Assembly: GCA_944385665.1 (NCBI GenBank)
Contig: CALWYB010000012.1
Location: 1 to 54,531, forward strand
Origin: an uncultured Oscillospiraceae bacterium
Lineage (GTDB): Bacteria; Bacillota; Clostridia; Oscillospirales; Oscillospiraceae
Length of the DNA: 54,531 bases
Direction: 5' to 3'
Shown here: positions 430-14,530 of the stretch, piece by piece
Position numbering within the stretch: the stretch's first letter is position 1
How the letters are laid out: every line of letters starts with the position of its first letter
Notes under the pieces: model-generated
Seen by the model: only the letters and a program-made list of their open reading frames with translations
The model's database searches: none
Told to the model about the DNA's origin: nothing
Position numbers and translations under genes: made by a program

Positions 430-671
430 GCTTAAGAGACAAGAAAACCGCGTATGTTTCGACTTAAGCGTGAGATAAAGAAGTCCTGTTTTCGGACTGG
501 AAACAGGTTAGCAGAAAAAGTTTGAATATTTTTCATGAAAATCTTTCAATTTTGAATTTCATCTGCTATAATATGCTTTAACAAGTTAATGTGAGCAGGC
601 CGACCATGGCGGTGGCCGGAGCGCGGGGGCGATTTGCCCCGGAATTGGAATCAGAGGAGAGAGGGTTCCCC
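430..671 (+). other. Intergenic region upstream of the mrp operon
   Basis: No gene is seen here. It holds two overlapping, mutually exclusive inverted repeats near 482-507 (AGTCC/GGACT and CCTGTTT/AAACAGG), an AT-rich stretch, the operon promoter at 544-572 and a leader of about 90 bases ahead of mrpE. Confidence 0.5.
544..572 (+). promoter_or_regulatory. Sigma-A-type promoter of the mrp operon
   Basis: A perfect -10 TATAAT (567-572) carries an extended-10 TGC (564-566). A weak -35 TTTCAA lies at 544-549 with 17-bp spacing. Predicted transcription start is near 579. Confidence 0.7.
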
Positions 672-1145
672 TTGTTTTTGTTGTTGTTCCTCATTTGGAT
701 TGTCCTGAACGGAAGATTGAACTGGGAAGTGGTGCTCATAGGCGCGGCGGTCTCCGCCGCGCTCACTTGGCTTGCCCGCACCGTGCTGAACCTGCCTGCC
801 TGGGGAGGACTGCGTATGATGCAGCGGCTCCCCAGGGTATTTTTATACCTTTTTTACCTGTTTGGTCAGGTGGTGGTGTCCAATCTCCAGGTGATGGAGC
901 GCATTCTCTTCCCGAAAAAGCGGAGGGGGGGCGGCCGGCTGGTGTGGTTCCGCACTGATTTGAAGGAGGAGGGCACCCGACTCACCCTGGCCAATTCCAT
1001 CACCCTCACCCCGGGGACGGTGACGGTCTCCCTGAAAGGGGACCGCCTGTGTGTCCATGCCCTGGATGAGGAGTTTGCCAAGGGAGCAAAGGAAAATGGT
1101 TTTGCGCCCCGCCTGGCGCGCTGGGAGGAGGGAGACCATGGCTGA
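672..1145 (+). CDS. mrpE: Mrp-type Na+/H+ antiporter subunit E
   Basis: Small membrane subunit of the multi-subunit Mrp (Mnh/Sha) cation/proton antiporter, 157 residues from the chosen start, the usual size for MrpE. Three hydrophobic segments fill the N-terminal half, followed by a soluble tail containing NSITLTPGTVTVSL, the conserved MrpE signature. I chose TTG 672 because a strong purine-rich ribosome site (AGAGGAGAGAGG, 652-663) sits 8 bases upstream; the in-frame GTG 591 would add 27 charged residues in front of the first membrane helix and lacks such a site. First gene of a ten-gene operon; its stop overlaps the mrpF start. MrpE is thought to help assembly and activity of the complex. 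Confidence 0.9.
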   Translation: MFLLLFLIWIVLNGRLNWEVVLIGAAVSAALTWLARTVLNLPAWGGLRMMQRLPRVFLYLFYLFGQVVVSNLQVMERILFPKKRRGGGRLVWFRTDLKEEGTRLTLANSITLTPGTVTVSLKGDRLCVHALDEEFAKGAKENGFAPRLARWEEGDHG

Positions 1146-1440
1146 GTGTACGCCGGTGCTGACAGGTGTGCTGGTGGGGGTGCTGTGTGTGCTGACCCTG
1201 GTGCTGCTGGCCTGTCTGGCCCGGGCCATCCGGGGACCCCGGTACACCGACCGGCTCATTGCCCTGAACATGATCTGTACCGTGGTCATTTTGCTGCTGA
1301 GTGTGCTGTCCTACCTGCTGGGTGCGTCCTACCTGGTGGATGTGGTCATCCTTTATGGACTGCTGAACCTGCTGGCGGTGGCGGTGCTCAGCCGGATCTC
1401 CATCCGGCGGCACCGGGAGAGAAGGGAGGAGGAGCCATGA
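1138..1440 (+). CDS. mrpF: Mrp-type Na+/H+ antiporter subunit F
   Basis: 100-residue subunit with three predicted membrane helices, matching MrpF/MnhF (PF04066). The second helix begins after RGPRYTDRLIALN, the family hallmark. ATG 1138 overlaps the mrpE stop (1143-1145) and has GGAGGAGGGAG just upstream, so translation is coupled. The C-terminus is short and highly charged. Upstream in-frame starts inside mrpE are rejected because they would add a non-homologous arginine-rich extension. Confidence 0.92.
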   Translation: MAECTPVLTGVLVGVLCVLTLVLLACLARAIRGPRYTDRLIALNMICTVVILLLSVLSYLLGASYLVDVVILYGLLNLLAVAVLSRISIRRHRERREEEP

Positions 1441-1766
1441 CCATACGTACCGTGCTGGGAGCGGTCCTCATCTGCCTGGGGGTGGTGGTGGTGCTCATCG
1501 CCGCCCTGGGGCTGTTCCGCTTCAAGGAGACCCTGGATCTCATCCACGCCGGAGCCTTGGCCGACACCATGGGGGTGTTCCTGGTGCTGGCGGGGGTGAT
1601 GGTGCTGTGGGGCTTGACGGTGGCCACCGCCAAGCTGGCCCTGGCCCTGGTGATCCTGTGGGTGACCAACCCGGTCTCCGCCCACCTCATCGCCCGCATG
1701 GAGCTGGTTACCGGCCGGGGCATCGAGCCCGACCAACTGCCGGGAGAGGGGGAGCAGGAGCTATGA
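1437..1766 (+). CDS. mrpG: Mrp-type Na+/H+ antiporter subunit G
   Basis: 109 residues and three membrane helices, as in MrpG/MnhG/PhaG (PF03334). Diagnostic pieces are GLFRFKETLDLIHA, then ADTMGVFLVLAG, then TNPVSAHLIAR. The ATGA overlap with mrpF (1437-1440) fixes the start and implies coupled translation. In Mrp and Mbh complexes this subunit is part of the small-subunit cluster next to the MrpA C-terminal region. Confidence 0.92.
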   Translation: MTIRTVLGAVLICLGVVVVLIAALGLFRFKETLDLIHAGALADTMGVFLVLAGVMVLWGLTVATAKLALALVILWVTNPVSAHLIARMELVTGRGIEPDQLPGEGEQEL

Positions 1767-2023
1767 TCGTGCTGGAAGTGCTGCTGCTGGCCTTTTTGGT
1801 GTTCTGCGCCCTGGCCACCGTGCTGGGCAAGAAGATGGTGTCCTCCATCATCATCTTCATGTCCTACTCGGCGGTCATGTCCATTTTGTGGTTTTTGCTG
1901 GAGTCCCCCGACCTGGCCATCACGGAGGCCGCCGTGGGGGCGGGGGTGACCAGCCTGCTGTTTTTCCTCACCCTGCGGAAAATCAATGCGGTGAAGGGGA
2001 TGGAGAAGGATGAAGAATCATAA
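1763..2023 (+). CDS. DUF4040/MbhD-like subunit of the antiporter complex
   Basis: 86 residues, three hydrophobic helices, with the DUF4040 core PDLAITEAAVGAGVTSLLFF. In classical Mrp this segment is fused inside MrpA; in membrane-bound hydrogenase (Mbh) operons it is the separate MbhD. The start overlaps the mrpG stop by four bases, and its end overlaps the next gene. The free-standing form and its place after the E-F-G genes follow the Mbh order (A-B-C-D). Confidence 0.85.
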   Translation: MIVLEVLLLAFLVFCALATVLGKKMVSSIIIFMSYSAVMSILWFLLESPDLAITEAAVGAGVTSLLFFLTLRKINAVKGMEKDEES

Positions 2024-3023
2024 CGTCCGGGAGGACTGGTACCACCGCTTTCTCCGCTGGGCGGGGGGCGAGGAGCCCGAGGGAGCCGAGGGACCCGAGG
2101 ATCCGGAGCGGGCCGAGTTCCAGGAGTACCTGGAGTACATCGAGGCCCACGGCTATATGGAGTTCGGGGCCTACCGCCTGATGCGCTTCCGTCAGCGCCG
2201 GGAGAAGGGCCTGGAGGACCCCCGGGGTTCTCTCCACGGTCCACCCGCCCCTGAGCCGGAGCCCGTCCATCCGCCCCGGCACCACCGCCCGGGCAAGCTG
2301 CGCAATCAGATCCTGCTCTACCGGGTGCTCAGCGCCGTGATTGTGATTACCCTGGCGGCTATCTTCCTGGTGGTCACCATGAACCTGCCTCTCTTCGGCC
2401 GGGCGGACAGCCCGGCGGTGAACGAGGTGTCCCAGCGCTATCTGGAGCAGGGCCTGGAGGAGACGGGGGCGGTGAACGCCGTCACCGGCATGATTTTGGA
2501 CTACCGGGCTTTTGATACCTTCGGGGAGTCGGCGGTGCTCTTTGCCGCCGCCATGAGCACCCTGCTGCTGCTCCACAGCCCGAAAAGCCGGATGCGCACC
2601 TTCCGGGGGCCGGACCAGGTCCTCTCCCAGGTGGGGCGGCGGGTGCTGCCCGTCATTCTGCTGTTCGGAGTCTATGTGGTGGTCAACGGCCACCTGAGCC
2701 CCGGCGGCGGATTTTCCGGCGGAGCCATTCTGGGCGGCGGTCTGATTCTGGCCTCCCTGGTGCTGGGGGAGGAGCGGATGGCCCGGATGCTGCCCGCACC
2801 CCGTACCTCTAAGATTACCGTCACCTGCCTGCTGGCCTACGGGCTGATGAAGGGATACTCCTTCTACACCGGGGCCAACCACGTGGGCTGGGAGGTGCCC
2901 AAGGGGATTCCCGGGGCTATTCTCAGCGGAGGGTTCATCCTGCCGCTGAATCTATGTGTGGGCATCATCGTGGCCTGCACCATGTATACCTTTTACTCAC
3001 TGTTTCTGGAAGGGGAGGGATAA
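2010..3023 (+). CDS. mrpB: MbhE-MnhB fusion subunit (MrpB-like) with charged N-terminal extension
   Basis: 337 residues. About 100 N-terminal residues are soluble, rich in Glu, Pro and Arg, and unlike standard MrpB. A membrane helix follows at about 107-130, then an MbhE-like stretch (ETGAVNAVTGMILDYRAFDT), then the MnhB/MrpB domain (PF04039) with NGHLSPGGGFSGGAILGGG. Standard MrpB is about 140 residues, so this gene joins the MbhE-like tail of MrpA to MrpB. ATG 2010 lies inside the end of the DUF4040 gene, giving a 14-base overlap. I do not know what the N-terminal extension does; a cytosolic contact or assembly role is only a guess. Confidence 0.85.
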   Translation: MKNHNVREDWYHRFLRWAGGEEPEGAEGPEDPERAEFQEYLEYIEAHGYMEFGAYRLMRFRQRREKGLEDPRGSLHGPPAPEPEPVHPPRHHRPGKLRNQILLYRVLSAVIVITLAAIFLVVTMNLPLFGRADSPAVNEVSQRYLEQGLEETGAVNAVTGMILDYRAFDTFGESAVLFAAAMSTLLLLHSPKSRMRTFRGPDQVLSQVGRRVLPVILLFGVYVVVNGHLSPGGGFSGGAILGGGLILASLVLGEERMARMLPAPRTSKITVTCLLAYGLMKGYSFYTGANHVGWEVPKGIPGAILSGGFILPLNLCVGIIVACTMYTFYSLFLEGEG

Positions 3024-3025
3024 CT

Positions 3026-3403
3026 GTGCTGGAGACCATTTTGCAGCAGCGCTACTACATCACCGCCGTGCTGCTGTTCAGCATCGGCTTTGTCACCCTG
3101 TTTCTCCACCCCAACCTCATCAAGAAGATCATCGGCCTGAATCTGATGGACACGGCGGTGTTTCTCTTCCTGGCCTCCATGGGCTACATCGAAGGGGGAG
3201 CCGCCCCCATTGTAGAGGAGGGAGCCAAGGCCTCCCAGTACATTAACCCGGTGCCCGGCGGCCTGGTGCTCACCGGCATCGTGGTGGCGGTGAGCACCAC
3301 CGCCCTGTTTCTGGCCCTGACCATCCGGCTCTACCGCCAGTACCACAGCGTCAACCTGGACGTGATCCTCATGCTGGCCTGGGAGGGCAAGGCGGAGGAC
3401 TAA
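3026..3403 (+). CDS. mrpC: Mrp-type Na+/H+ antiporter subunit C (NuoK-like)
   Basis: 125 residues with three membrane helices, homologous to MrpC/NuoK (PF00420). The family signatures HPNLIKKIIGLNLMDTAVFLF and NPVPGGLVLTGIVVAVSTTA are present. The start is GTG 3026, three bases after the mrpB stop, with AAGGGGAGGGA as ribosome site; earlier in-frame ATGs lie inside mrpB. In Mrp, MrpC bridges the small subunits and the MrpD-type antiporter subunits. Confidence 0.9.
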   Translation: MLETILQQRYYITAVLLFSIGFVTLFLHPNLIKKIIGLNLMDTAVFLFLASMGYIEGGAAPIVEEGAKASQYINPVPGGLVLTGIVVAVSTTALFLALTIRLYRQYHSVNLDVILMLAWEGKAED

Positions 3404-3433
3404 AACCCTGCTATGGGAGAGGAGGTGAAGCGA

Positions 3434-4915
3434 ATGCCCCTTACATACAATATCCCCATGTTCAGCATCCTCCTGGTGCTGATGAGCGCTATGGTTATCC
3501 CCTTCTTTTCAAAAAAGAGCTGGGGACTGAACCTGATCCGCGGGGTGGAAGTGGTGGTGGCTGCCCTGTCGGCGGTGCTGCTGGTCCAGCTGTCTGGGGC
3601 GGGGGAGAGCTTCACCTATCAGATGGGCCACTTCCCGGCCCCCTGGGGCAATCTCCTGCGCTGCGGTCCCCTGGAGGCCCTGCTGGCCCTGGTGTTCAGC
3701 CTGGTGATGATCCTGTCCCTGTGCGCCGGGGCGGAGGACATCCGCCGGGATGTGCGCGCCGACCGGCAGGGGAGCTACTGTGTGCTCATGCAGCTGCTGT
3801 TTGGGTCGCTGCTGGCCATGATCTACACCGACGACCTGTTTACCGCCTACGTCTTTATTGAGATCGCCGCCGTCACCGCCTGCATGGCGGTGGTGGCCAA
3901 GGAGAGCGGACGGTCGGTGGTGTCTGCCATCCGCTACCTGATTTTCAGCTGCCTGGGCTCTGGCCTGGTGCTGCTGGGGATCGCCCTGCTCTACTGCATC
4001 ACCGGACAGCTCCTCTGCTCCAGCCTGGAGCAGGCAGTGATGGAGCTGGTGGCCACCCGAACCTATTCTCTGCCTCTGGTGGTGTCTGCCCTGCTCATGA
4101 CCCTGGGCCTGAGCATCAAAAGCGCCCAGTTTCCCTTCCACGCCTGGCTGCCCGACGCCCACGCCAGCGCCACCACCGCCTCCAGCGCGGTGCTCTCCGG
4201 CCTGGTGCTGAAAGGCTACCTCATCATCCTGCTGAAACTGATCCTGCGGGTGTACGGTCCCTCTCTGCTGGCTACCACCTATATGGACGACCTGCTGTTT
4301 CTCCTGGGACTCACCGGGATGCTTTTTGCCTCGGTGGCGGCGCTGCGCCAGGAGGAGGTCAAGAGCATGATCGCCTACTCCTCCTCTGCTCAGATCTCCT
4401 ACATCTTCCTGGGGCTGGGCCTGGGGACTGACGCGGGGCTCATTGCTGCCTGCTACCAGATTCTGGCCCACGCCATGACCAAGTCTATGATCTTCTCGGG
4501 AGCGGGAGCCATGATCCGGGCCAGTGGGGGAGGACATTACTGGAGCCAGCTCCGGGGCGCTGCCCGCCGGGCGCCTCTGGGCGGGCTGGCCTTCACCGTG
4601 GGCGGCCTGTCCCTGTGCGGCCTGCCCCTGTTGGCGGGCTTTTCCGCCAAGTACTGCCTGGCCATCGCCGCCCTGGACGCCCAGTGGCAGACCGCCCCGG
4701 CTCTCTTCGGCCTGGCGGCCAGCTCGGTGCTCAACGCCATGTACTACATCCCCGCCATCCTGGCCATCTGGGGCCGGGGCAAGGAGGGGGAGCGGCTCCC
4801 CTGGAAGTGGGAGCGGGAGGGTGCGCTGGCGCTGTTCCTCCTGTGCAACGTGGTGCTGGGCACCGCCTTCGGCCCTGTCCGGGACCTGATTGAGCAGGGC
4901 CTGAACCTGTTTTAA
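3434..4915 (+). CDS. mrpD: Antiporter-like subunit 1 (MrpD/NuoN type)
   Basis: 493-residue polytopic protein of the proton-conducting transporter family (PF00361). Charged residues required for ion transfer in NuoL/M/N and MrpD are all visible: Glu143 (TM5), Lys229 (TM7, in SIKSAQFPFHAWLPDAH), Lys260 (TM8) and Lys406 (TM12, in GFSAKYCL). I take ATG 3434 because GAGAGGAGGTG lies just upstream; ATG 3413 has no such site. It directly follows mrpC, as MrpD and MbhH do in their operons. First of four homologous large subunits in a row. Confidence 0.88.
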   Translation: MPLTYNIPMFSILLVLMSAMVIPFFSKKSWGLNLIRGVEVVVAALSAVLLVQLSGAGESFTYQMGHFPAPWGNLLRCGPLEALLALVFSLVMILSLCAGAEDIRRDVRADRQGSYCVLMQLLFGSLLAMIYTDDLFTAYVFIEIAAVTACMAVVAKESGRSVVSAIRYLIFSCLGSGLVLLGIALLYCITGQLLCSSLEQAVMELVATRTYSLPLVVSALLMTLGLSIKSAQFPFHAWLPDAHASATTASSAVLSGLVLKGYLIILLKLILRVYGPSLLATTYMDDLLFLLGLTGMLFASVAALRQEEVKSMIAYSSSAQISYIFLGLGLGTDAGLIAACYQILAHAMTKSMIFSGAGAMIRASGGGHYWSQLRGAARRAPLGGLAFTVGGLSLCGLPLLAGFSAKYCLAIAALDAQWQTAPALFGLAASSVLNAMYYIPAILAIWGRGKEGERLPWKWEREGALALFLLCNVVLGTAFGPVRDLIEQGLNLF

Positions 4916-4945
4916 GACGAAACCCATCGGAAAGGAGGTGGGGGA

Positions 4946-6415
4946 GTGGACGGAATCCTGCTTCTCTTGCCCATCTTGGTGCCCATCCTGGGCGGCCTGG
5001 CTGTGCTGGGCATCCACAATATGAATACCCGGCGGGTGACCGTCACGCTTCTGCTGCTCTTTCAGATTTTTGTGGTGCTGGAGGTCTCCCGGAACGACAC
5101 CGGCCCCTTTGTGCTGCTTCGCCTTACCCAGGGGGCGCGGCTGGTGCTCCAGGGGGACTCATTGGGGCGGCTGTTTGCCAACCTTATCTGTCTTATCTGG
5201 TTTGCGGTGGCCGTCTTTGCCTTTGAGTACATGAACCATGAGGGTCACCGGGAGCGGTTCTTCGGCTTCTATCTTATGACCCTGGGCGCTCTGATGGGGA
5301 TCTGCTTTGCGGGCAATCTGGTAACGCTCTACCTCTTTTATGAGATGATGACCCTGCTGTCTGTCCCTCTGGTCCTCCACATCGGCACCCGAAAGGCCTT
5401 CGAGGCGGCCTACCGCTACCTGGGCTTCTCGGTGGCGGGGGCGGGACTGGGCCTGCTGGGATTGTTTGTCCTCCAGGGCTACTGCACCACCGACCTGTTT
5501 ACCCCCGGAGGCGTACTGGACCTTGCCCGGGCAGGGGAGGACCGCACCCTGCTGCTGGGCGTGTTCGTGGTGATGGCGGTGGGCTTTGGCTGCAAGGCGG
5601 GCATGTTCCCCCTCCACGCTTGGCTGCCCATCGCCCATCCGGTGGCCCCGGCTCCCGCCTCGGCGGTGCTCTCCGGCCTCATCACCAAGATGGGTGTGCT
5701 GGCCCTGCTGCGGGTGGCCTACTACCTGTTCGGCTGGGAGTTCCTGGACGGCTCCTGGGCGCAGATGGTGGTGCTGGTGCTCGCCCTCATTACCGTGTTT
5801 ATGGGCTCCACCCTGGCCCTGCGGGAGGATACCCTGAAAAAGCGGCTGGCCTACTCCACCGTCAGTCAGGTGTCCTATGTCATCTTTGGCCTGATGCTGT
5901 TCCACCCCGTGGCTTTGGAGGGAGCGCTGCTCCAGGTGATTTTCCATGCCGTGGCCAAAAATGCCCTGTTCCTGGCCACCGGCTCGGTCATTTACCAGAC
6001 CCACATCACCCAGGTCTCCCAGATGCGGGGCGTAGGTGTGGCGTGCAGCTTCACCATGTGGAGCTTCGCCCTGTCCGCCCTGTCCCTGGTGGGCATCCCC
6101 CCCACCGGCGGCTTTGTCAGCAAGTGGCTGCTGGCCCAGGGAGCCCTGGAGGCGGGGGACTTCACCCTGGCCTGCTGGGGCATCGGGGTGCTGATGGTGT
6201 CCGCTTTGCTGACGGCGGGCTACCTGCTGCCCATCGTCATCCGGGCCTTTTTCCCGGGAAAAGATTTTGACCACGAGAGCGTCATCAAGCAGCAGGACAC
6301 CTGGCTTATGTGGACTACTCTGTGCCTGCTCACCGCGGCGGTGGTGCTGCTGGGCATGTTCCCCAACTGGCTGGAGGCCGGACTGGGGGCGGTGGTGGAG
6401 CCCCTGTTCGGATAA
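4946..6415 (+). CDS. Antiporter-like subunit 2 (NuoM/MrpD type)
   Basis: 489-residue paralogue of the preceding subunit, PF00361 family, about 14 membrane helices. Key charged residues are kept: Glu133, Lys217 (in GCKAGMFPLHAWLP), Lys248 (in ITKMGV) and Lys393 (in FVSKWLL), so it should be competent for ion transfer rather than a relic. GTG 4946 has AAAGGAGGTG five bases upstream. A 69-bp stretch (5622-5690) is nearly identical to the same position in the fourth subunit. Extra antiporter-like subunits beyond A and D are not part of canonical Mrp. Confidence 0.85.
   Translation: MDGILLLLPILVPILGGLAVLGIHNMNTRRVTVTLLLLFQIFVVLEVSRNDTGPFVLLRLTQGARLVLQGDSLGRLFANLICLIWFAVAVFAFEYMNHEGHRERFFGFYLMTLGALMGICFAGNLVTLYLFYEMMTLLSVPLVLHIGTRKAFEAAYRYLGFSVAGAGLGLLGLFVLQGYCTTDLFTPGGVLDLARAGEDRTLLLGVFVVMAVGFGCKAGMFPLHAWLPIAHPVAPAPASAVLSGLITKMGVLALLRVAYYLFGWEFLDGSWAQMVVLVLALITVFMGSTLALREDTLKKRLAYSTVSQVSYVIFGLMLFHPVALEGALLQVIFHAVAKNALFLATGSVIYQTHITQVSQMRGVGVACSFTMWSFALSALSLVGIPPTGGFVSKWLLAQGALEAGDFTLACWGIGVLMVSALLTAGYLLPIVIRAFFPGKDFDHESVIKQQDTWLMWTTLCLLTAAVVLLGMFPNWLEAGLGAVVEPLFG
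5622..5690 (+). repeat. 69-bp direct repeat, copy 1
   Basis: Matches 8617-8685 with three mismatches, including a 34-base identical run (5644-5677). It encodes the TM7-TM8 loop (LPIAHPVAPAPASAVLSG). Identity at silent positions is higher than in the rest of these paralogues, which may reflect gene conversion or strong codon bias. Confidence 0.8.
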
Positions 6416-6446
6416 TATTTGACTGGAAAGAAGGAGGTGAGAACCC

Positions 6447-7913
6447 ATGCTTATGCTGTGCGCCATTTTGTTCCCCATGCTGGCCGGACTGGGTCTGGCA
6501 GCCTGGCGGCCCCAGAGCCGGATCGCCCGGCAGAACTACGTGCTGGCTGCGGCCTGCGGTACGTCCGCCCTGGCTCTGGGGGCGGTATTTACCCTGCGGG
6601 GCGGCCCCCTGTTCACGCTGCTGGTCATGGGGGATCACCTGTCCATCGCCTTCCGGGTGGACGGCCTGTCCTGCCTGTTCGCCGCGCTAGTGTCGGTGCT
6701 GTGGCCTCTGGCCTGCCTGTATGCCGTGGAGTATATGAGCCGGGAGGGGCATGAGAACCGGTTTTTCACCTTCTACCTAGCCAGCTTCGGCGTGACCCTG
6801 GGCATCGCCTTCTCGGCCAACGCCCTCACCATGTACCTCTTCTATGAACTGCTCACCCTGGCCACCCTGCCCCTGGTGATGCACGCCATGGACAGCAAGG
6901 CCCGCTACGCCGGGCGGGTGTACCTTACCTACTCCATGTGCGGGGCGGCCCTGGGCTTTCTGGCCATGGTCATGCTGCTGGAGCACGGGGGCACCGTGTT
7001 TCAGTTCGGGGGCAGTTTGGTATGCCCCGCCGGCAAGGAGGATACCTTGCGGGCGGCCTATGTGCTGGGCTTTTTCGGCTTCGGCGTGAAGGCGGCGGTG
7101 TTCCCGGGACACAAGTGGCTGCTGCGGGCCTCGGTGGCTCCCACGCCGGTGACCGCCCTGCTCCACGCAGTGGCGGTGGTGAAGGCGGGGGTGTTTGCCG
7201 TCACCCGCCTCACCTGGTACGGCTACGGCCCCGCCCTTCTTCGGGGCTCCTGGGCCCAGTATCTGGTGATGGGAGCGGCCATCTTTACCATTGTGTACGG
7301 CTCCTCCAAGGCCCTGCGCACCAAGCACTTAAAGCGCCGCCTGGCCTGGTCCACCATCAGCAACCTGTCCTATGTGCTGCTGGGGGTGACCACCCTGACC
7401 ACCGCCGGACTGGCGGCGGGAATGGTCCATATGATTTTCCATGCGGTATTGAAGATCACCCTGTTTTTCTGCGTAGGCGCGGTCCACTACAAGCTCCACC
7501 GGGACTTTGTCCCCGACGTGGAGGGCTGCGGCGTGCTGATGCCCATTGTGTTTGGCTGCTTTGCCACGGCGGGCCTGGGCCTGATGGGCGTGCCGCCTCT
7601 GGCGGGCTTTACCAGCAAGTGGATGCTGGCCACCTCGGCGGTGGGACTGGGGGAGGGGATCGGCTATCTGGCCGCGGCAGCGCTCATTTTATCCGCCCTG
7701 CTCACCGCACTGTACCTCATGCAGATCGTGCTGCTGGCCTTTTTCCCCCGGCAGAACCGGCAGCTTACCGTCCGGGTGCCCCGACAGGCCCGGCGGGACC
7801 CGGGCATCCGCATGACCCTGCCCCTCACCGTGCTGTCGGCGGGATCGGTGGTGTTGGGGTTGGGGGCCAACCATCTGGTCACCGTGGTAAACACTCTGCT
7901 GGGCGCGGGGTAA
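6447..7913 (+). CDS. Antiporter-like subunit 3 (NuoM/NuoL type)
   Basis: 488 residues, PF00361 family. It is the most divergent of the four around TM7-TM8: VFPGHKWLLRASVAPTPV followed by ALLHAVAVVKAG, a form typical of NuoL/MrpA-like members rather than the LP-x-AHP form of its neighbours. Charged residues are still complete: Glu134, Lys215, Lys246, Lys391, plus an additional Lys in GHKWLL. ATG 6447 is preceded by AAGAAGGAGGTGAG. It lies between the two copies of the 69-bp repeat. Confidence 0.85.
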   Translation: MLMLCAILFPMLAGLGLAAWRPQSRIARQNYVLAAACGTSALALGAVFTLRGGPLFTLLVMGDHLSIAFRVDGLSCLFAALVSVLWPLACLYAVEYMSREGHENRFFTFYLASFGVTLGIAFSANALTMYLFYELLTLATLPLVMHAMDSKARYAGRVYLTYSMCGAALGFLAMVMLLEHGGTVFQFGGSLVCPAGKEDTLRAAYVLGFFGFGVKAAVFPGHKWLLRASVAPTPVTALLHAVAVVKAGVFAVTRLTWYGYGPALLRGSWAQYLVMGAAIFTIVYGSSKALRTKHLKRRLAWSTISNLSYVLLGVTTLTTAGLAAGMVHMIFHAVLKITLFFCVGAVHYKLHRDFVPDVEGCGVLMPIVFGCFATAGLGLMGVPPLAGFTSKWMLATSAVGLGEGIGYLAAAALILSALLTALYLMQIVLLAFFPRQNRQLTVRVPRQARRDPGIRMTLPLTVLSAGSVVLGLGANHLVTVVNTLLGAG

Positions 7914-7946
7914 GGTATTTCATTTCATAGAAAGGAGGGAGAGAGG

Positions 7947-9956
7947 ATGTCGGATCTGCTGCTGATGCTGGTGTTCCTGCCTATGGCGGCGGGGGCCTTT
8001 GCATTCTGGATGGGCCTTGCCTACCCCAAGGCCCGGGACACCGTGGTGCTGGCGGTGACCGTGCTGGAGACCATGATGGTAGCCACCCTGTGGACCGGTC
8101 CGGTGCTGGAGAGCGGGATCGACGGCTTCTGTGGTCTGGGCATCCGCTTTGCCTCGGGCGATTTCCATACCCTGATGGCCACCCTCACTGCCACAGGCTG
8201 GCTGGCGGCCACCATCTTCTGTCGGGAGTACATGGCCCACGTGGCCCGTCAGAACCGGTACTACCTCTTCTGGCTCATGACTCTGGGGGCCACCATGGGG
8301 GTATTTTTGTCCGCCGACCTGTTTACCACCTTTATTTTCTTTGAGGTCATGTCCTTTACCTCCTTTGTCACCGTCATCCAGACCGAGGAGCCCGATGCCC
8401 TCCAGGCGGGGGACACCTACCTGGCGGTGGCGGTGATCGGCGGCCTGGCCGCGCTGACGGGGCTGTTTCTCCTCTACTACCAGCTGGGTACCCTGGAGTT
8501 TGACGCCATGCGGGAGGCGGCCGCCGCCCTGGAGGACCGGGGCGTCCTGTGGGCCTCCGGCATTCTCATCCTCATCGGCTTTGGGGCCAAGGCGGGCGCT
8601 TTCCCCCTGCATATCTGGCTGCCCACCGCCCATCCGGCGGCCCCGGCTCCCGCCTCGGCGGTGCTCTCCGGCGTCATCACCAAGACGGGGATCTACGGGG
8701 TGCTGGTGTTGTCCACCACCATCTTCCTCTACGACGGAGGATGGGGGATGCTGCTGGCGGCCATCGGCGGCATCACCATGGTATTGGGGGCGGCGCTGGC
8801 GGTGTGCTCCATCGACCTCAAGCGCACCTTCGCCTGCTCCTCCATCTCCCAGATCGGCTTTATCCTGGTGGGGGTCTCCATGCAGTGCCTGCTGGGACAC
8901 CACAACGCCCTGGCGGTGGACGGAACCATCCTCCACATCTTCAACCACTCCCTCATTAAGATGGTCCTCTTTCCCGCCGCCGGCGTCATCCACCTGTCCA
9001 CCCACTCCTACGATCTCAACGACGTACGGGGCTTTGGCCGAAAAAAGCCGGTGCTGGCGGTACTGATGGGGGTGCCCATGCTCAGTCTGGCGGGCCTGCC
9101 TCTGCTCAACGGCTATGTGAGCAAGACCCTGCTCCACGAGAGCATTGTGGAGTATATCGCTCTGGCTCCCCAGTACGGGGTGCTGTTCACCGGCCTGGAG
9201 TGGCTGTTCCTGCTGTCTGGCGGACTGACTCTGGCCTACATGCTCAAGCTGTTTGTCTGCCTCTTCCTGGAGCGCAACACCCTGCCCGAGAAGGCCCTGG
9301 AGAAGAAGTGGCACGGCCCCAAGCCCTACATCGCCCCCGCCACCGCGGCCACCATGGGGGTCTATGTTCTGGTCATGGCCTTTTTGGGGACCACCCCCAA
9401 CGGGGGCATGGACAGCCTGGCCGCCCTGGGGCGCAGCTTTCTCCACGGGGAGGGGCCGGAGCACCCGGTGGCCTACTTCTCCGCCGTTAACCTGCGGGGG
9501 GCGGCCATCTCCGTGGTAATCGGCTCCCTGGTCTACCTGCTGGCGGTGCGGAAGCTGCTCATCCGCCGGGAGCGGTATGTGAACCCCATCCCCGGCTGGA
9601 TGAATCTGGAGCTTGGGCTCTACCGGCCCGCGCTGCGTTTTGCCGCCCAGGCGGCCATCGTGCTGGCCACCCTGGTGGACCGTATCCTGCCCCGGCTCAT
9701 CTTCCACGGCATTCCCAGCCTCTTTGCCCGGGGGCACCAGAGCCTGCTGAAGCTGCGGGACAAGGCGGTCACCGCCCTCACCGGGGCGGAGTACACCCCC
9801 CGGCCCAGCGTGGAGCAGGCGGCGGACGACTACCACTTCGCCTTCTACTCCGACGACCCCCGCCGCTCGGTGGGCTTTGTCCACTCTCTGGCCTTCGGCC
9901 TGATGCTCACCGGCCTGGGGCTGGTGTTCGGGCTGCTGTTCATCCTGCTCCATTAA
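7947..9956 (+). CDS. Antiporter-like subunit 4, long form (NuoL/MrpA-N type)
   Basis: 669 residues, the longest of the four: a PF00361 core followed by about 190 extra residues with an amphipathic/soluble part (near YTPRPSVEQAADDYHFAFYS) and a final membrane helix, recalling the lateral helix plus last TM of NuoL or MrpA. Charged residues are Glu133, Lys215 (in GAKAGAFPLHIWLPTAHP), Lys246 and Lys393. AAAGGAGGGAGAGAGG precedes ATG 7947. Last gene of the operon; a strong terminator follows at 10019. Confidence 0.85.
   Translation: MSDLLLMLVFLPMAAGAFAFWMGLAYPKARDTVVLAVTVLETMMVATLWTGPVLESGIDGFCGLGIRFASGDFHTLMATLTATGWLAATIFCREYMAHVARQNRYYLFWLMTLGATMGVFLSADLFTTFIFFEVMSFTSFVTVIQTEEPDALQAGDTYLAVAVIGGLAALTGLFLLYYQLGTLEFDAMREAAAALEDRGVLWASGILILIGFGAKAGAFPLHIWLPTAHPAAPAPASAVLSGVITKTGIYGVLVLSTTIFLYDGGWGMLLAAIGGITMVLGAALAVCSIDLKRTFACSSISQIGFILVGVSMQCLLGHHNALAVDGTILHIFNHSLIKMVLFPAAGVIHLSTHSYDLNDVRGFGRKKPVLAVLMGVPMLSLAGLPLLNGYVSKTLLHESIVEYIALAPQYGVLFTGLEWLFLLSGGLTLAYMLKLFVCLFLERNTLPEKALEKKWHGPKPYIAPATAATMGVYVLVMAFLGTTPNGGMDSLAALGRSFLHGEGPEHPVAYFSAVNLRGAAISVVIGSLVYLLAVRKLLIRRERYVNPIPGWMNLELGLYRPALRFAAQAAIVLATLVDRILPRLIFHGIPSLFARGHQSLLKLRDKAVTALTGAEYTPRPSVEQAADDYHFAFYSDDPRRSVGFVHSLAFGLMLTGLGLVFGLLFILLH
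8617..8685 (+). repeat. 69-bp direct repeat, copy 2
   Basis: Second copy of the repeat at 5622-5690. Recombination between the copies would be in frame and would fuse antiporter-like subunits 2 and 4 while deleting subunit 3. Confidence 0.8.
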
Positions 9957-10018
9957 CGAAAAAATCCATCGAAACGGGTCAGACAATAAAAAATATCCCA
10001 CATCCTCCAAAAGTATGA

Positions 10019-10077
10019 AACCTCCTGTCCGGGAGATACTGAATGACACAGTATCCCGGAAGGAGGTTCTTTTTTTG
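10019..10077 (+). terminator. Strong intrinsic terminator of the mrp operon
   Basis: AACCTCC (10019-10025) pairs with GGAGGTT (10062-10068); TCCGGGA and ATACTG (10028-10041) pair with CAGTATCCCGGA (10049-10060). The stem is followed by an eight-base stretch of T (10070-10076). It separates the operon from sigG. Confidence 0.9.
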
Positions 10078-10124
10078 CCCCCGCCCGGGCCATACGAGAC
10101 AGTCACCGGCGGGAGGTTTTGGAT

Positions 10125-10895
10125 ATGCTGAATAAGGTGGAGCTGTGCGGGGTGAATACCGCCAAGCTGAAGGTGCTGAAGAACGAGGAGACCCAGGCCC
10201 TGCTGCGCCGGGCCAAGGAGGGGGACAAGCAGGCCCGGGAGGAGCTCATCGCCGGGAATCTTCGGCTGGTGCTGTCGGTGATCCATAAGTTTGCCAACCG
10301 GGGAGAGAATGTGGACGACCTGTTCCAGGTGGGGTGTATCGGCCTCATCAAAGCCATTGACAACTTCGACACCTCCCTGGACGTGAAGTTTTCTACCTAC
10401 GGTGTCCCGATGATTGTGGGAGAGATCCGCCGTTATCTGCGGGACAACAGTGCCATGCGGGTGTCCCGGGCCATGCGGGACACCGCCTATAAGGTGCTCC
10501 AGGCCAAGGAGGCCTACATTGCCCAGCACCAGAAGGAGCCCAGTGTGGAGGAGATCGCCCAGATGCTGGGCATAAAAAGGGAAGAGGTGGTCTTTGCTCT
10601 GGACGCCATCCTGGACCCGGTGTCCCTGTACGAGCCCATCTACTCCGACAGCGGGGATACGGTGTGCGTGATGGATCAGGTGAAGGACAGCCGGAACACG
10701 GACGAGATGTGGCTGGAGCACATCGCCCTGAAGGAGGCGGTGTCCCGGCTCAGCGAGCGGGAGCAGAAGATTCTGGCTATGCGCTTTTACCAGAGCAAGA
10801 CCCAGGTGGAGGTTTCCCGGGAAATCGGCATCTCCCAGGCCCAGGTGTCCCGGCTGGAGAAGAACGCCCTGCGGCAGATCCGAAAGGAGTTATAA
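10125..10895 (+). CDS. sigG: RNA polymerase sporulation sigma factor SigG
   Basis: 256-residue sigma-70 family protein that directs late forespore transcription. The N-terminus (NKVELCGVNTAKLKVLKNEE) is the SigG-specific leader. Region 2 holds NLRLVLSVIHKFANRGENVDDLFQVGCIGLIKA with the DNA-melting segment KFSTYGVPMIVGEIRRYLRD. Region 3 holds EPSVEEIAQMLGI, and region 4 the helix-turn-helix SKTQVEVSREIGISQAQVSR. Start ATG 10125 has GGGAGG 8 bases upstream. It stands alone here between the mrp terminator and convergent cstA, not beside spoIIGA-sigE as in Bacillus. I see no clear promoter in the short gap before it. Confidence 0.93.
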   Translation: MLNKVELCGVNTAKLKVLKNEETQALLRRAKEGDKQAREELIAGNLRLVLSVIHKFANRGENVDDLFQVGCIGLIKAIDNFDTSLDVKFSTYGVPMIVGEIRRYLRDNSAMRVSRAMRDTAYKVLQAKEAYIAQHQKEPSVEEIAQMLGIKREEVVFALDAILDPVSLYEPIYSDSGDTVCVMDQVKDSRNTDEMWLEHIALKEAVSRLSEREQKILAMRFYQSKTQVEVSREIGISQAQVSRLEKNALRQIRKEL

Positions 10896-10932
10896 AAAAT
10901 CCCGCCCGACAGAGCAGCGCTCTGCCGGGCGG
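10893..10932 (-). terminator. Terminator between convergent sigG and cstA
   Basis: CCGCCCGACAGAGC (10902-10915) pairs with GCTCTGCCGGGCGG (10919-10932) with one mismatch. Six or seven A residues at 10893-10899 give a U-tract on the - strand, so it ends cstA transcription well; it can also stop sigG transcripts less efficiently. Confidence 0.8.
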
Positions 10933-10960
10933 CCAAATGATGCAGAAATCGGAGTGTTGG

Positions 10961-12418
10961 TTACGCGGCCAGCTTGGTCACGTCGTCCTTGTGGCCCATC
11001 CACTCCCGCACGATGAAGATGCCGAAGAACACCACAGCCACGATGATGCCCACAGGGTAGGCGATGGCGGTGGACATGTTCAGGCACTCGGGAGCCTGGA
11101 TGAAGTAGGTCACGGACACAGCGGACATAAAGGTGGCAGGCAGCGCGGCCATCATGCAGGCGATGGGGGGGAAGCCGTTGCGGTGCAGATACACAGCGCC
11201 GGCCCACAGCACCATCATAGCCAGAGTCTGGTTGGACCAGGAGAAGTACTTCCACAGGGTGGCAAAGTCGCCCCACTGGGTGAGCAGTGCGCCCACGCCC
11301 AGCACAGGCACGGACAGCAGCAGGCGGTACTTCCAGTTGTGCTGGTCAATGTGGAACCAGTCGGCCAGAGTCAGACGGGCGGAACGGAAGGCGGTGTCGC
11401 CGGAGGTGATGGGGCAGGCAATAACGCCCAGCAGAGCCAGAACGCCGCCCACAGGGCCCATCATGGTGGAGCAGATGTTCTCCACGACCACGGACTGACC
11501 ACCGGCCAGCGCGTCGTTCAGAGCGCCCACGGTGCCATAGAAGGTGACGCCGGCGGCGGCCCAAATGAGGGCGATGACGCCCTCGGTGACCATGGCGCCG
11601 TAGAAGATTGTGCGGCCCTCTTTCTCAGAGGTCATGCAGCGGGCCACCATGGGGGACTGGGTGGCATGGAAGCCGGAGATGGCGCCGCAGGCCACGCTGA
11701 CGAACATCTGAGCCCAGATGGGGGTGTTGGCGGGATGGCCCATGCCTTCCACGCCGATGTACTGCCACATCTCAGGCATCTGAGCGCGGTAGTTGCTGTC
11801 AAAGAGCATCACGCCGGCAATGCCCACGGCCATGATAATGAGGCAGGCGCCGAAGATGGGGTAGAGCTTGCCGATGACCTTGTCGATGGGGAGGAAGGTG
11901 GCGATGAAGTAGTAGATCAGAACCACGGCCAGCCAGAAGTTGGCGTCCAGGGTGTCGGGGGTGAGGATGGCCAGCAGCTGGGCGGGGTTCTTGGAGAAGT
12001 TGACGCCCACCAGGATCAGCAGAATCACGGAGAACACCCGCATGACCTGGAGCATGAACTTGCCCAGATACTTACCTACGATCTCCGAGATGGAGGCGCC
12101 GTCATGCCGCTCACTGAGCATGCCGGACAGATAGTCATGTACACCGCCGCCCAGGATGGTACCAAAGACGATCCACAGGTACACCCGGGGCCCCCAGCAG
12201 GCGCCGGCCAGGGCGCCGAAGATGGGACCCAGACCGGCGATGTTCAGCAGCTGAATGAGGAACAGCCGCCAGGTCTTCATGGGGGTGTAGTCCACGCCGT
12301 CGGGGTGGGCCACCGCGGGGGTCTGGCGATCATCGACCCGGAAGACCTTCTCGATGAGCTTGCTGTACAGCGCGAAGCCCACGATCAGGACCACCAGAGA
12401 GATCAGGAACGTAATCAT
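10961..12418 (-). CDS. cstA: Carbon starvation protein A, peptide/pyruvate transporter
   Basis: 485-residue integral membrane protein of the CstA family (PF02554 with the C-terminal DUF4161 region). Recognisable blocks are NIAGLGPIFGALAGACWGP, GGGVHDYLSGMLSERHDG, SGFHATQSPMVARC and ACPITSGDTAFRSARL. Length is in the range of the short Gram-positive CstA group. Start ATG at 12416-12418 is preceded by AGGAGGG. CstA members import peptides or pyruvate, and which one applies here cannot be read from sequence. It has its own promoter and a roughly 178-base leader with attenuator-like structure. Confidence 0.92.
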   Translation of the reverse strand: MITFLISLVVLIVGFALYSKLIEKVFRVDDRQTPAVAHPDGVDYTPMKTWRLFLIQLLNIAGLGPIFGALAGACWGPRVYLWIVFGTILGGGVHDYLSGMLSERHDGASISEIVGKYLGKFMLQVMRVFSVILLILVGVNFSKNPAQLLAILTPDTLDANFWLAVVLIYYFIATFLPIDKVIGKLYPIFGACLIIMAVGIAGVMLFDSNYRAQMPEMWQYIGVEGMGHPANTPIWAQMFVSVACGAISGFHATQSPMVARCMTSEKEGRTIFYGAMVTEGVIALIWAAAGVTFYGTVGALNDALAGGQSVVVENICSTMMGPVGGVLALLGVIACPITSGDTAFRSARLTLADWFHIDQHNWKYRLLLSVPVLGVGALLTQWGDFATLWKYFSWSNQTLAMMVLWAGAVYLHRNGFPPIACMMAALPATFMSAVSVTYFIQAPECLNMSTAIAYPVGIIVAVVFFGIFIVREWMGHKDDVTKLAA

Positions 12419-12596
12419 AATCTTTTCCCTCCTACGATTGCCGCACCGCCTGCTCCGCCAGGGGTGCGAAAAAATCGGCGTGCGGAGCCGCCGCCCCACA
12501 GTGGCATCATTTGGATTTTTTGTAAAACACTGTGCGAGTCCGGAACACACAACCGGACCCCGGGCGAAGGCAGACCGGCCAGTCCGCCTCCTAAGC
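12419..12596 (-). promoter_or_regulatory. Structured leader of cstA with attenuator-like hairpins
   Basis: Read on the - strand, the leader has a hairpin GTCCGG/CCGGAC (12553-12558 with 12538-12543), a pair CACAGTG/CACTGTG, and a small terminator: CGGCG (12489-12493), loop, CGCCG (12476-12480), then a run of U (12469-12474). The terminator loop contains GCTCCGC (12482-12488), which is complementary to GCGGAGC just downstream (12452-12458), so terminator and alternative pairing exclude each other. No known riboswitch class is recognised. Confidence 0.5.
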
Positions 12597-12602
12597 GGCT
12601 CT

Positions 12603-12630
12603 ATTATAACATCTAAGGGAGGGAAGTCAA
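12603..12630 (-). promoter_or_regulatory. Promoter of cstA
   Basis: On the - strand TTGACT (12630-12625) and TATAAT (12608-12603) are separated by 16 bp. Predicted start of transcription is near 12596. Confidence 0.75.
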
Positions 12631-12683
12631 CCCTCTGTTTGTAGAATCTAACAGTTAATTTCCTGTTAAAAAATTTTTTACTG

Positions 12684-12720
12684 GCAAAAAGAGAGGAAGC
12701 GGCCGCGTAACGGCTGCCTC
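12684..12720 (-). terminator. Terminator of the ZIP transporter gene
   Basis: On the - strand GAGGCAGC and GCTTCCTC pair with one mismatch around a GC-rich loop, followed by TCTTTTT. Confidence 0.65.
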
Positions 12721-12737
12721 AGCAAGTTAAGGCCGGG

Positions 12738-13520
12738 CTAACCCAGTGCCACATCCAAAATCATCATTAACAAAAAGCCCACCATCACCCCGTAAGTACC
12801 GCCGTGAGTCTGGTGGTCGTGTCGCAGGTTGGCCTCGGGGATGAGCTCCTCCACCACCACGTAGAGCATGGCGCCCGCCGCAAAGGAGAGAAGCCAGGGC
12901 AGCGCCAGCTGTACCGACCCCGCCGCCAGCACGGTGAGCAGGGCGGCGATGGGCTCCACCGCGCCGGAGGCCGCCCCGATGAGAAAGGATTTGGTGCGGC
13001 TCAAGCCCGCCTGACGCAAAGGCAGGGAGATAGCCGCCCCCTCGGGGAAGTTCTGGATGCCGATGCCCAGGGCCAGAGCGCCGGCGGCGGGGAGCAGCTC
13101 CTCCTGTCCCTGGGCGGCCAGGGCGAAGGACACCCCCACCGCCATGCCCTCGGGGATGTTGTGCAGGGTGATGGCCAGGATGAGCAGCAGGTTCTGAGCC
13201 CCGCTGCGGCGGCGGAGAAGCTCCGGGGAGAAGTGGGGGAGCAGGCCGTCCATGGCCACCAGGAAGAGGATGCCCAGGGCGGAGCCTCCCGCGGCAGGCA
13301 GCCAGCCGGGCAGGCCCAGCGCCTGGGCCTCCTCGATGGCGGGGATGAGCAGGGACCACATGCTGGCGGCGATCATCACCCCGGCGGCAAAGCCCAGCAT
13401 GATGCGGTGAAGGCTGGGGGAGACCTGATTGCGGAAGAGAAAGACCATGGCCGCGCCCAGGGCGGTCATACAAAAGGTGAAGCCGGTTCCGCTGCCGGCC
13501 CAGAGAAGCGCTTGTGCCAA
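12738..13520 (-). CDS. ZIP family divalent metal transporter
   Basis: 260-residue membrane protein of the ZIP family (PF02535), which brings Zn2+ or other divalent metals into the cytoplasm. The metal-site motif HNIPEG is at 120-125 in TM4 and QNFPEG at 156-161 in TM5; here the first position of the second motif is Gln, as in many GufA-type ZIPs. The last 40 residues carry a His-rich loop (LRHDHQTHGG), a likely metal-sensing or binding loop. The start is TTG 13520, with AAAGGAG eight bases upstream on the - strand. Monocistronic, divergent from pyrH. Exact metal unknown. Confidence 0.88.
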   Translation of the reverse strand: MAQALLWAGSGTGFTFCMTALGAAMVFLFRNQVSPSLHRIMLGFAAGVMIAASMWSLLIPAIEEAQALGLPGWLPAAGGSALGILFLVAMDGLLPHFSPELLRRRSGAQNLLLILAITLHNIPEGMAVGVSFALAAQGQEELLPAAGALALGIGIQNFPEGAAISLPLRQAGLSRTKSFLIGAASGAVEPIAALLTVLAAGSVQLALPWLLSFAAGAMLYVVVEELIPEANLRHDHQTHGGTYGVMVGFLLMMILDVALG

Positions 13521-13813
13521 ACAAAAAACTCCTTTCCAAGCCGAAGTGCGGCGGGGACTCCGGCGGATATAATAAAGGGTGCGCTGTCTCAGGCTATGAC
13601 GGAAGGACCCCAGAGGTGCGGGACGGGGAGCACAGGGAGAAAGGAAAAAAATTTACCTAAAACCCCTAGGCAAACGGGAATAATTACGGTAAAATAAGAG
13701 GCGATATGAAACCGGGAAGGACGGGGAAGAGAGAGCGGCCACGTGCCTGAAGTTAGGCGGGCCGGCCCGGCGCCTTCTCACACTATGAAATAAGGAAATA
13801 AGGAGTGTTTCCC
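13521..13813. other. Divergent intergenic region between ZIP transporter and pyrH
   Basis: No gene is seen. AT-rich hexamers occur on both strands (for example TATAAT-like sequence near 13568-13573 and TAAAAT near 13691), but I could not pair them with convincing -35 boxes. The pyrH operon promoter must lie here or be unusual. Confidence 0.4.
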
Positions 13814-14530
13814 ATGGAGAAGCCCAAATATAAACGTGTTCTGCTGAAAATCAGCGGCGAGGCTCTGGCCGGCGACGCCAGCCGCGGCCTGGACTTTCAG
13901 GTCATCGAGCAGGTCTGCGACGTGGTGAAAAAGTGCGTGGGCCTGGGTGTCCAGGTGGGCATCGTGGTCGGCGGCGGCAACTTCTGGCGGGGCGTCAAGG
14001 ACGGTGGAGACCAGATGGTCCGGGTCCGCTCCGACCACATGGGCATGCTGGCCACCGCTATCAATGCCCTGGCGGTAGCCGACGTGCTGGAGCAGAAGGG
14101 CGTGGAGGTCCGGGTACAGACCGCCATCGAGATGCGGGCTGTGGCTGAGCCCTATATCCGTTCCCGTGCCATCCGCCACCTGGAGAAGGGCCGCGTGGTC
14201 ATCTTCGGCTGCGGCACCGGCAACCCCTTCTTCTCCACCGATACCGCCGCCGTGCTGCGGGCTGCTGAGATCGACGCCGAGGTCATCCTGCTGGCCAAGA
14301 ACATCGACGGCGTCTACTCCGCCGACCCCAAGAAGGAGCCCGGCGCGGTGAAGTACGACTCCATCAGCTACAGCGAGGTGCTGGCCAAGCGCCTGCAGGT
14401 GATGGACTCCACCGCCACCTCCCTGTCCATGGACAACAAGATCCCCGTGCTGCTCTTTGCCCTGAAGGACCCGGAGAACATCCTGCGGGCCGTGATGGGA
14501 GAGAAAATCGGCACCATCGTCCAGGGCTGA
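13814..14530 (+). CDS. pyrH: UMP kinase
   Basis: 238-residue hexameric bacterial UMP kinase of the amino-acid-kinase fold; converts UMP to UDP with ATP. Signatures are [24 protein letters not shown], the UMP/GTP region around [13 protein letters not shown] and the ATP-side [18 protein letters not shown] 13814 is eight bases after AAGGAG; the nearby GTG 13805 lies on the ribosome site itself. It starts the conserved pyrH-frr-uppS-cdsA-dxr-rseP-ispG-polC run. Confidence 0.95.

Follow-up and report, generated by a model that had tools for sequence, protein, structure and literature searches.

The stretch of DNA analysed here (hereafter the window) is the whole 54,531-nucleotide stretch of contig CALWYB010000012.1 from an uncultured Oscillospiraceae bacterium (assembly GCA_944385665.1). 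At positions 591-9956 of its plus strand, it carries ten overlapping or closely spaced genes in the order mrpE-F-G-mbhD-(mbhE+mnhB fused)-C-D1-D2-D3-A4, which probably encode one stand-alone, redox-free group-3 Mrp cation/proton antiporter whose proton module is extended. All ten proteins scored above the curated Pfam cut-offs (MNHE, MrpF_PhaF, PhaG_MnhG_YufB, MbhD, MnhB+MbhE, Oxidored_q2 and four times Proton_antipo_M), and the genes, order and strand read by the initial annotation, which was made by a model from the sequence alone, were all recovered. The most distinctive feature is the presence of four full-length antiporter-like subunits, D1, D2, D3 and A4 (500, 489, 488 and 669 residues), which account for all PF00361 matches in the 2.63 Mb genome (95.5% complete). 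NCBIfam provided no model at its curated cut-off, all matches being considered for the six small proteins and the 25 best for the four large subunits. A widespread and conserved redox-free Mrp in which four antiporter-like subunits are present (in one case five) appears to be new. No account of this exact operon was found in the open-access literature covered, nor did a four-subunit redox-free Mrp appear among the results listed from open-licence PMC papers (subscription papers lay outside the search). Extra pumping subunits are already known from redox complexes (2M, green and Complex_I_3, as presented in PMC9040806), and PMC5703873 lists group-3 Mrp clusters in which the D gene is duplicated, one of them written D, D, A.

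The small genes come first. The mrpE/mnhE gene (MbhA-type, 591-1145, starting at GTG 591 or ATG 606; PF01899, E=2e-30) is followed by mrpF (MbhB-type, 1138-1440; PF04066, E=1e-8), mrpG (MbhC-type, 1437-1766; PF03334, E=3e-19) and mbhD/DUF4040 (1763-2023, 86 residues; PF13244, E=1e-18). The latter corresponds, as a free-standing protein, to the initial portion of the C-terminal domain of MrpA. Next are the 337-residue MbhE+MnhB fusion (2010-3023; PF20501 and PF04039, with the solved chain 6u8y_E at E=4e-24) and a mrpC/nuoK-like gene (MbhG-type, 3026-3403; PF00420, E=2e-20). Among the large subunits, D1 (3413-4915; PF00361, E=6e-50) is MbsH/NuoN-like according to the tree and to its nearest solved chain (6u8y_H, E=2e-50), and its predicted position adjoins the small subunits. 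D2 (4946-6415; PF00361, E=4e-51), placed by the trees, and D3 (6447-7913; PF00361, E=3e-47) precede A4 (7947-9956; Proton_antipo_M), which bears a C-terminal extension made of TM15, a presumed lateral helix and TM16 (TM, transmembrane helix). Exact gene starts were chosen among alternatives. An extended -10 box (TGctataat, 564-572), read from the sequence and absent from the list of the consensus scan, lies upstream on the same strand, and an intrinsic-terminator-like hairpin with a T run follows the operon (10005-10078, plus strand; free energy -31.5 kcal/mol, z -5.3), so that the range 544-10077 originally proposed fits a transcription unit.

This arrangement was recovered in many related genomes. 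One hundred loci were compared, composed of the best 80 of at least 584 matches from a scan of GTDB species genomes with a D3 alignment and of 20 loci from the same family (Oscillospiraceae). All four large subunits were present in 72 of them and all ten genes in 62. Gene order was identical in 58 of the 62 complete loci, and the operon order is thus not a chance arrangement; of the other four, one had an extra D1-like subunit and three differed only in that the start of an open reading frame (ORF) had been set too far upstream. The 28 loci set aside comprised other Mrp types, three-subunit forms, contig-cut blocks, one locus with D3 split over two ORFs (L098) and one without D1 (L049). Within the family, PF00361 was matched in 32 of 120 genomes, and 16 of the 120, the window's included, displayed at least four tandem matches on a single contig (that of G101 ends within the fourth). 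In the same taxonomic order, four in tandem on one contig were recorded in 14 of 245 genomes (window's included), spread over five families. Fifteen further family loci were read and all showed E-F-G-MbhD-(MbhE/MnhB)-C-D1-D2-D3-A4, L036 having a fifth large subunit and L048 an A4 cut by the contig end. Most hosts among the best 80 matches belonged to Lachnospiraceae, Oscillospiraceae or other Clostridia, and record titles place many of them in animal guts; named strains with the four-subunit form include Hungatella hathewayi WAL-18680 and Butyricicoccus pullicaecorum ET57. The ten-gene block is therefore a conserved locus type, a common operon in Clostridia rather than a one-off, and appears to be the multi-subunit antiporter of many animal-gut Clostridia. 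In the five-subunit version (L036:3351-14498, on G018:C44), a second, deep-branching D1-like subunit is located between D1 and D2.

Redox partners were searched for next to the block as well as elsewhere in the genomes. A tblastn search with 17 redox queries (12 Nuo/Hyf proteins from E. coli and five family proteins) on 103 loci at E 1e-6 gave no match in 70 of the 72 four-subunit loci, the two others (L039 and L118) showing a single isolated Fe-S-type match each. Matches occurred in six of the 103 loci: two Mbh-like operons (L052 and L053), the Ensifer complex I (L144), L138 with its HyfC/NuoH-like neighbour, L039, and L118 with one isolated ferredoxin-like match. No neighbour was common to more than six of the 72 loci; 2 kb or more of sequence was available upstream in 56 of them and downstream in 54. 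The commonest flanking family occurred in six loci at mixed positions (ABC ATPases in our own reading) and three further families in four loci each, one of them, just upstream, being methyltransferase-like in our reading. Neither within the block nor next to it was a complex-I-like redox module found, as the initial annotation had rightly noted, and a constantly adjoining NuoBCDI/hydrogenase module, which would have deprived the finding of its novelty, was not found over the 72 four-subunit loci. The isolated match of L039 (L039:2788, E 1e-14) is NuoG-like, lies some 4 kb away from the block and was seen in a single genome.

At the genome level, NuoH (PF00146) and NuoD/NiFe (PF00346) were searched for in 26 genomes that were 70-100% complete, 20 of them counted as carriers. 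These include G016, G025 and G106, counted from PF00361 matches on two contigs each, and G107 (L049), counted despite an incomplete set. Neither family was matched in 18 of the 20 carriers, among them the window's own genome, and in 14 of 16 if these four are left out; six carriers without match are given as 97-100% complete. In the two exceptions (G046 and G094), NuoH and NuoD were found on another contig, in a separate Mbh-like operon with its own antiporter-like subunit. Overall, PF00146 was matched in seven of the 26 genomes at E 0.001, six being above the cut-off and the seventh (G010) falling inside one of its own antiporter-like subunits, and PF00346 in six. Each of the two families was found in 11 of 14 named control genomes, and G004, G051 and G066 displayed PF00361, PF00146 and PF00346 together on one contig in the absence of the ten-gene block, which indicates that the searches work. 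Other energy-converting systems were also recorded in the 120 family genomes. Rnf/Nqr-type PF03116 occurred in 102 of them (17 of 20 carriers and 85 of 100 others) and the V-type ATPase family PF01813 in 17 of 20 carriers and 72 of 100 others, the window's genome having both. The Mbh-like operons of the two exceptions (L052 on G046:C111 and L053 on G094:C73) associate NuoD/NuoH-type genes with a single antiporter-like subunit of about 645 residues.

Key residues were highly conserved in all four large subunits. Rows with less than 80% of the length of the window protein were excluded from the counts, and helix numbering was transferred by alignment, TM5, TM7, TM8 and TM12 being the helices that we take to carry these residues. 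The TM5 Glu, TM7 Lys and TM12 Lys columns were invariant in D1 (70 rows), D2 (73), D3 (73) and A4 (70), as was a further Lys three turns on (K357, K338, K336 and K338, respectively, in the window). All four subunits therefore look competent, as first suggested. The TM8 Lys that had likewise been attributed to all of them is indeed present in the window and invariant in D1, D2 and A4 of the relatives, but, of the 73 D3 rows, 59 have K and 14 have N at this position. A second TM8 position separated D3 from the others. D3 possesses a His there in 73 of 73 rows (H240 in the window), as in MrpA and NuoL, and this His was kept by all eleven middle-type subunits compared (ten belonging to three-subunit Mrp-like blocks and one to the Ensifer complex I), while the column contained Ser in D1 (69/70), D2 (73/73) and A4 (70/70). 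A4 is thus devoid of the TM8 His switch of NuoL/MrpA type. The corresponding MrpA residue, His248, has been proposed as a proton-path switch (PMC9568556).

Conservation extended to the small subunits: D38 (61/63) and R39 (63/63) in MrpF, P79 in MrpG (64/65), D50 and E55 in MbhD (66/66 each), R166, D169 and E173 in the MbhE-MnhB fusion (all 68/68) and D42 in MrpC (69/69). The cation path presented for the Anoxybacillus Mrp involves MrpF Asp35, MrpG Pro86, MrpA Glu706, Asp792 and Glu796 (with MbhD Glu69) and MbhG Asp37 (PMC7419157). On the basis of shared motifs, MrpF Asp38, MrpG Pro79, MbhD Glu55 (offset by four residues), MbhE Asp169/Glu173 and MrpC Asp42 may be equated with these residues, so that the group-3 Mrp cation path would be conserved here. 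An antiporter function appears well supported by this putative path.

Classification was examined against the major groups of related complexes. Group-3 Mrp is defined in PMC5703873 and PMC8415708 by subunits E, F, G, B, B', C and D in irregular order, all of which were detected by Pfam in this single operon (B being MbhD/E-type and B' MbhF/MnhB-type). Four large subunits lie outside the one to three that are usual, though not defining, in this group, and the block is therefore a variant of group-3 Mrp. Canonical Mrp complexes of groups 1 and 2 (Bacillus, Anoxybacillus and Dietzia; 7qru, 6z16 and 7d3u) share the proton-channel fold and key residues, but they carry MbhD/E at the MrpA C-terminus and possess two proton subunits, whereas here no such MrpA fusion was found, MbhD being a separate gene and MbhE being fused to MnhB. 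MBS (6u8y) and MBH (6cfw) display the same small-subunit set, and MBS further shares the fused MbhE-MbhF. Yet, they possess a redox module (J, K, L, M and N) with two and one antiporter-like subunits, respectively, while MbhM (NuoH) and MbhL (NuoD/NiFe), which also characterize Mbx, were those unmatched in the window's genome and in most carriers. The same applies to complex I. The 2M complex I, the rhizobial green complex I and Complex_I_3 of Manganitrophaceae likewise align four or five antiporter-like subunits in a row according to PMC9040806; these are redox-driven pumps with NuoB-I, in contrast to the present block, which combines the lack of a redox part with a cation-exit module. Nearest solved structures were MBS subunit E for the MbhE-MnhB fusion, MbsH for D1, MbhH and MrpD for D2 and A4, and MbhH, NuoL and MrpA for D3. 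The Mbh-like layout initially reported thus stands for gene set and order, but, judging from the fusion and from D1, the scaffold seems nearer MBS and group-3 Mrp than MBH.

Closer relatives were found among stand-alone systems. The mrpEFGBB'CD cluster of Pyrococcus furiosus (stand-alone group-3, CPA3), as presented in PMC8415708, also begins with E-F-G and has separate MbhD/E- and MbhF-type domains, C and D and no redox part; Na+ is reported there as its coupling ion. It has one antiporter-like subunit compared with four here, and MbhE and MnhB are fused only here. Aphanothece (mrpCD1D2EFGAB), Microbacterium (mrpFGBCDDAE) and the Synechocystis group-3 cluster also have more than one D gene, and the passages of PMC5703873 devoted to them mention no redox module. 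In that review, the cyanobacterial A gene is also written as B type, and the Aphanothece cluster with duplicated mrpD is said to have been shown to work as a Na+/H+ antiporter. By their names, these clusters include two, at most three, large subunits; they are set apart from the four-subunit block by description rather than by sequence.

The three-subunit blocks of Peptoclostridium acidaminophilum (L146), Clostridium mobile (L117) and C. pascui (L125) were the most similar in organization. They display the same order (E-F-G-MbhD-MbhE-MnhB-C-D1-middle-A4) and the same A4 type, with no complex-I-like redox match within the fetched stretch, but they have a single middle subunit instead of D2 and D3, and MbhE and MnhB are encoded separately. 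In Peptoclostridium, genes for an anaerobic sulfite reductase lie some 6 kb upstream of mrpE; we regard them as unrelated. The Halomicrococcus plasmid block (L145) also has E-F, DUF4040, MnhB, C and three proton-channel subunits, again with no complex-I-like redox match within the fetched stretch, and its middle subunit groups with D2/D3. Its third subunit is of another type, nearer to MbsH' and the rhizobial second MrpD, and no G gene appears in the plasmid annotation table. Two further three-subunit Mrp loci were recorded: one from the window's family (L050:6677-14501, on G032:C17), which groups with the haloarchaeal/proteobacterial type, and one from a metagenome-assembled genome of Spirochaetia (L138:8135-21203), with HyfB-/HyfC-like genes a few kb beyond.

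The tree of the four subunits and their relatives, suggested at the outset, showed D1, D2, D3 and A4 each forming its own clade over ten four- and five-subunit loci (91-row quick tree; the extra D1 of L036 branched apart). One clade with support 100 assembled D2, D3, the middle subunits of three-subunit blocks (Clostridium, Peptoclostridium, Halomicrococcus, two proteobacteria, a spirochaete and others) and that of the Ensifer complex I. From this shared clade we infer that the fourth subunit may therefore have arisen by duplication of a middle-type subunit. D2 and D3 were sisters in the quick tree (98). A more careful 37-row tree retained both clades (D2, 97/91; D3, 100/99) but grouped D3 with the middle forms of three-subunit blocks to the exclusion of D2 (81/75), and the approximately unbiased (AU) test did not reject a clade of D3 with clostridial middle forms (p 0.227). 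A single clean D2/D3 duplication was abandoned on account of this conflict, and, since the trees disagree, we claim from the phylogeny no more than that D2 and D3 are paralogues of the middle type, to which the one middle subunit of three-subunit blocks also belongs. Another locus of the family (L051:7169-12850, on G010:C1) combines E-F-G-EB-C with two tandem antiporter-like subunits (528 and 533 residues; end branches 0.13 and 0.23), apparently a recent and independent duplication.

A4 is the only subunit long enough (669 residues compared with 488-500) for the presumed lateral helix. In the window model, TM15 spans 513-538, followed by a helix at 554-612 with a predicted local distance difference test score (pLDDT) of about 50-68 and a last helix at 640-668. 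An orthologue (L084) was modelled with helices at 569-597 (pLDDT 73-84), 600-630 (48-61) and a last one at 700-721. The best structure match of A4 was MrpD, over the core; MrpA and NuoL rows reached A4 model residues 575-589 in the structure alignment, and a few NuoL rows about 615 with a root mean square deviation near 5. The end piece, including the lateral helix, is thus a prediction of the models. Beyond residue 535, the tail measured 110-217 residues in the four-subunit form (median 155.5, n=70), 134 in the window, 202 in the five-subunit locus and 117, 123, 134 and 216 in four three-subunit loci. Lengthening of the lateral helix with subunit number was considered and dropped, the ranges of the three forms overlapping. 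A 'GEN' motif occurs in the lateral-helix region in two copies in L034, L045 and L047, in one copy in six rows and not at all in 61 of the 70 rows, as if the tail of these three loci had been lengthened via internal repeats.

We infer assembly into one complex, as well as subunit order, cation identity and direction, along the following lines. The membrane row would consist of the cation module (E, F, G and MbhE-MnhB), an MbhD/C junction, then D1, D2, D3 and A4, the latter closing the far end while its lateral helix braces the row. Protons pulled by the membrane potential would enter the cell via half-channels of the four antiporter-like subunits, and Lys/Glu couples would relay the charge change down the row to D1 and on to MrpC Asp42, presumed to sit at the proton/cation junction, and MbhD Glu55. 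A cation (most likely Na+, possibly K+) that had come in from the cytoplasm via MrpF Asp38 and MrpG would then leave outward past MbhE Asp169/Glu173.

The least certain aspect is stoichiometry. How many H+ each antiporter-like subunit moves, and whether the subunits work individually or together as a row, is debated for complex I and Mrp alike. If each extra subunit added one H+, the ratio would exceed 2 H+/Na+, and two more subunits could raise it up to 4 H+ per Na+. This increase is plausible, but we lean against it because 4 H+/Na+ would be too much at -100 mV; such a ratio would be of use only if the potential were low or if each cycle moved more than one Na+. For two-subunit Mrp, 2 H+ per Na+ were modelled in PMC9568556, which nevertheless calls the stoichiometry unknown. 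A slightly more speculative extension is that proton subunits (one or two, three, four, five) were gained or lost as modules on a constant cation module, as in a series of gears each raising the H+:cation ratio, with D2 and D3 having divided the work (TM8 His switch in D3, Ser in D2). Such a series would let gut fermenters with a weak proton-motive force keep a Na+ gradient; likewise, if the ratio is raised, one could persist in a fermenter even when its potential is weak. In the four- and five-pump redox complexes, redox chemistry confounds the H+ count, whereas here a common redox-free scaffold bears three, four or, in one locus, five subunits, which makes the ratio measurable directly against subunit number.

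Several observations weigh against a Na+-extruding antiporter of this kind. One H+ per subunit with one Na+ would give, by simple arithmetic, an equilibrium Na+ gradient of 1000-fold at -60 mV and 100,000-fold at -100 mV, above the cell's need, and a transport measurement for the four-subunit form was not found in the literature covered. In an ungapped linear alignment, MbhD Glu55 lies four residues before the equated MrpA Glu, whose position is occupied by Gly59 (66/66), and the MBH His41 position displays Phe or Tyr in the C subunit (68/69). The block is patchily distributed (the only congeneric genome searched besides the window's gave no PF00361 match), and the 120 family genomes revealed no genomic link of the block to Rnf/Nqr or V-type ATPase. 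Finally, L049:6697-14323 (G107:C261) has D2-D3-A4 with no D1 or small-subunit match in the remaining 2.9 kb upstream (no N), and is either a rearranged block or a misassembly.

Among alternatives, the same machine might be used in the opposite direction, Na+ (or K+) flowing inward to drive H+ out and confer acid tolerance on acid-making fermenters. We consider this rather unlikely, yet the most serious competitor: hosts are mostly animal-gut Clostridia according to record titles, gut Clostridia live by fermentation, and the Rnf/Nqr-type protein present in 17 of 20 carriers could supply the Na+ gradient. Moreover, a mutant of the P. furiosus stand-alone group-3 Mrp was more acid-sensitive, which PMC8415708 interprets as Na+ in/H+ out. 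However, with several H+ per Na+, one Na+ cannot expel them against the potential, and this use would require a ratio close to 1:1 or the passage of several Na+ in each cycle. Somewhat less likely still is the transport of K+, Ca2+ or another cation in place of Na+. PMC5703873 reports a multi-subunit Mrp of Thermomicrobium roseum as a Ca2+/H+ exchanger in E. coli vesicles, and K+ was bound in the Anoxybacillus structure (PMC7419157); against this, the cation-path residues resemble those of Na+-linked Mrp/MBH, although residues do not fix the ion. It seems improbable that the operon encodes several smaller Mrp complexes sharing the small subunits and D1 and swapping D2, D3 or A4 by condition. 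D2 and D3 could be alternatives with different properties given their TM8 His/Ser difference, and the terminator-like matches of the consensus scan within the operon region (11 compared with 7.6 expected, standard deviation 2.9) are compatible with internal stops. Yet, 58 of the 62 complete loci have one of each gene in fixed order, the strong hairpin comes after A4 and the presumed lateral helix fits only the length of A4. Least probable of all is a membrane arm of a redox or other enzyme with a soluble partner encoded elsewhere, as the initial annotation had envisaged: the complexes with four or five antiporter-like subunits described in PMC9040806 are redox complexes (2M, green and Complex_I_3), D3 relatives include MrpD from the Ensifer complex I operon, a partner could be missed in some of the incomplete genomes and an entirely unrelated one would escape the NuoH/NuoD and neighbour searches, but the block has no conserved neighbour, a redox partner in trans was rejected for the 18 carriers in which neither PF00146 nor PF00346 was matched, and the other two have these genes on another contig, beside their own antiporter-like subunit.

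Directly after the operon, positions 10119-14530 begin with a gene for a sigma-70-family sigma factor (regions 2, 3 and 4), beyond which lie CstA and ZIP-type transporter genes on the minus strand and then, on the plus strand, an AA_kinase gene that we take to be UMP-kinase-like.

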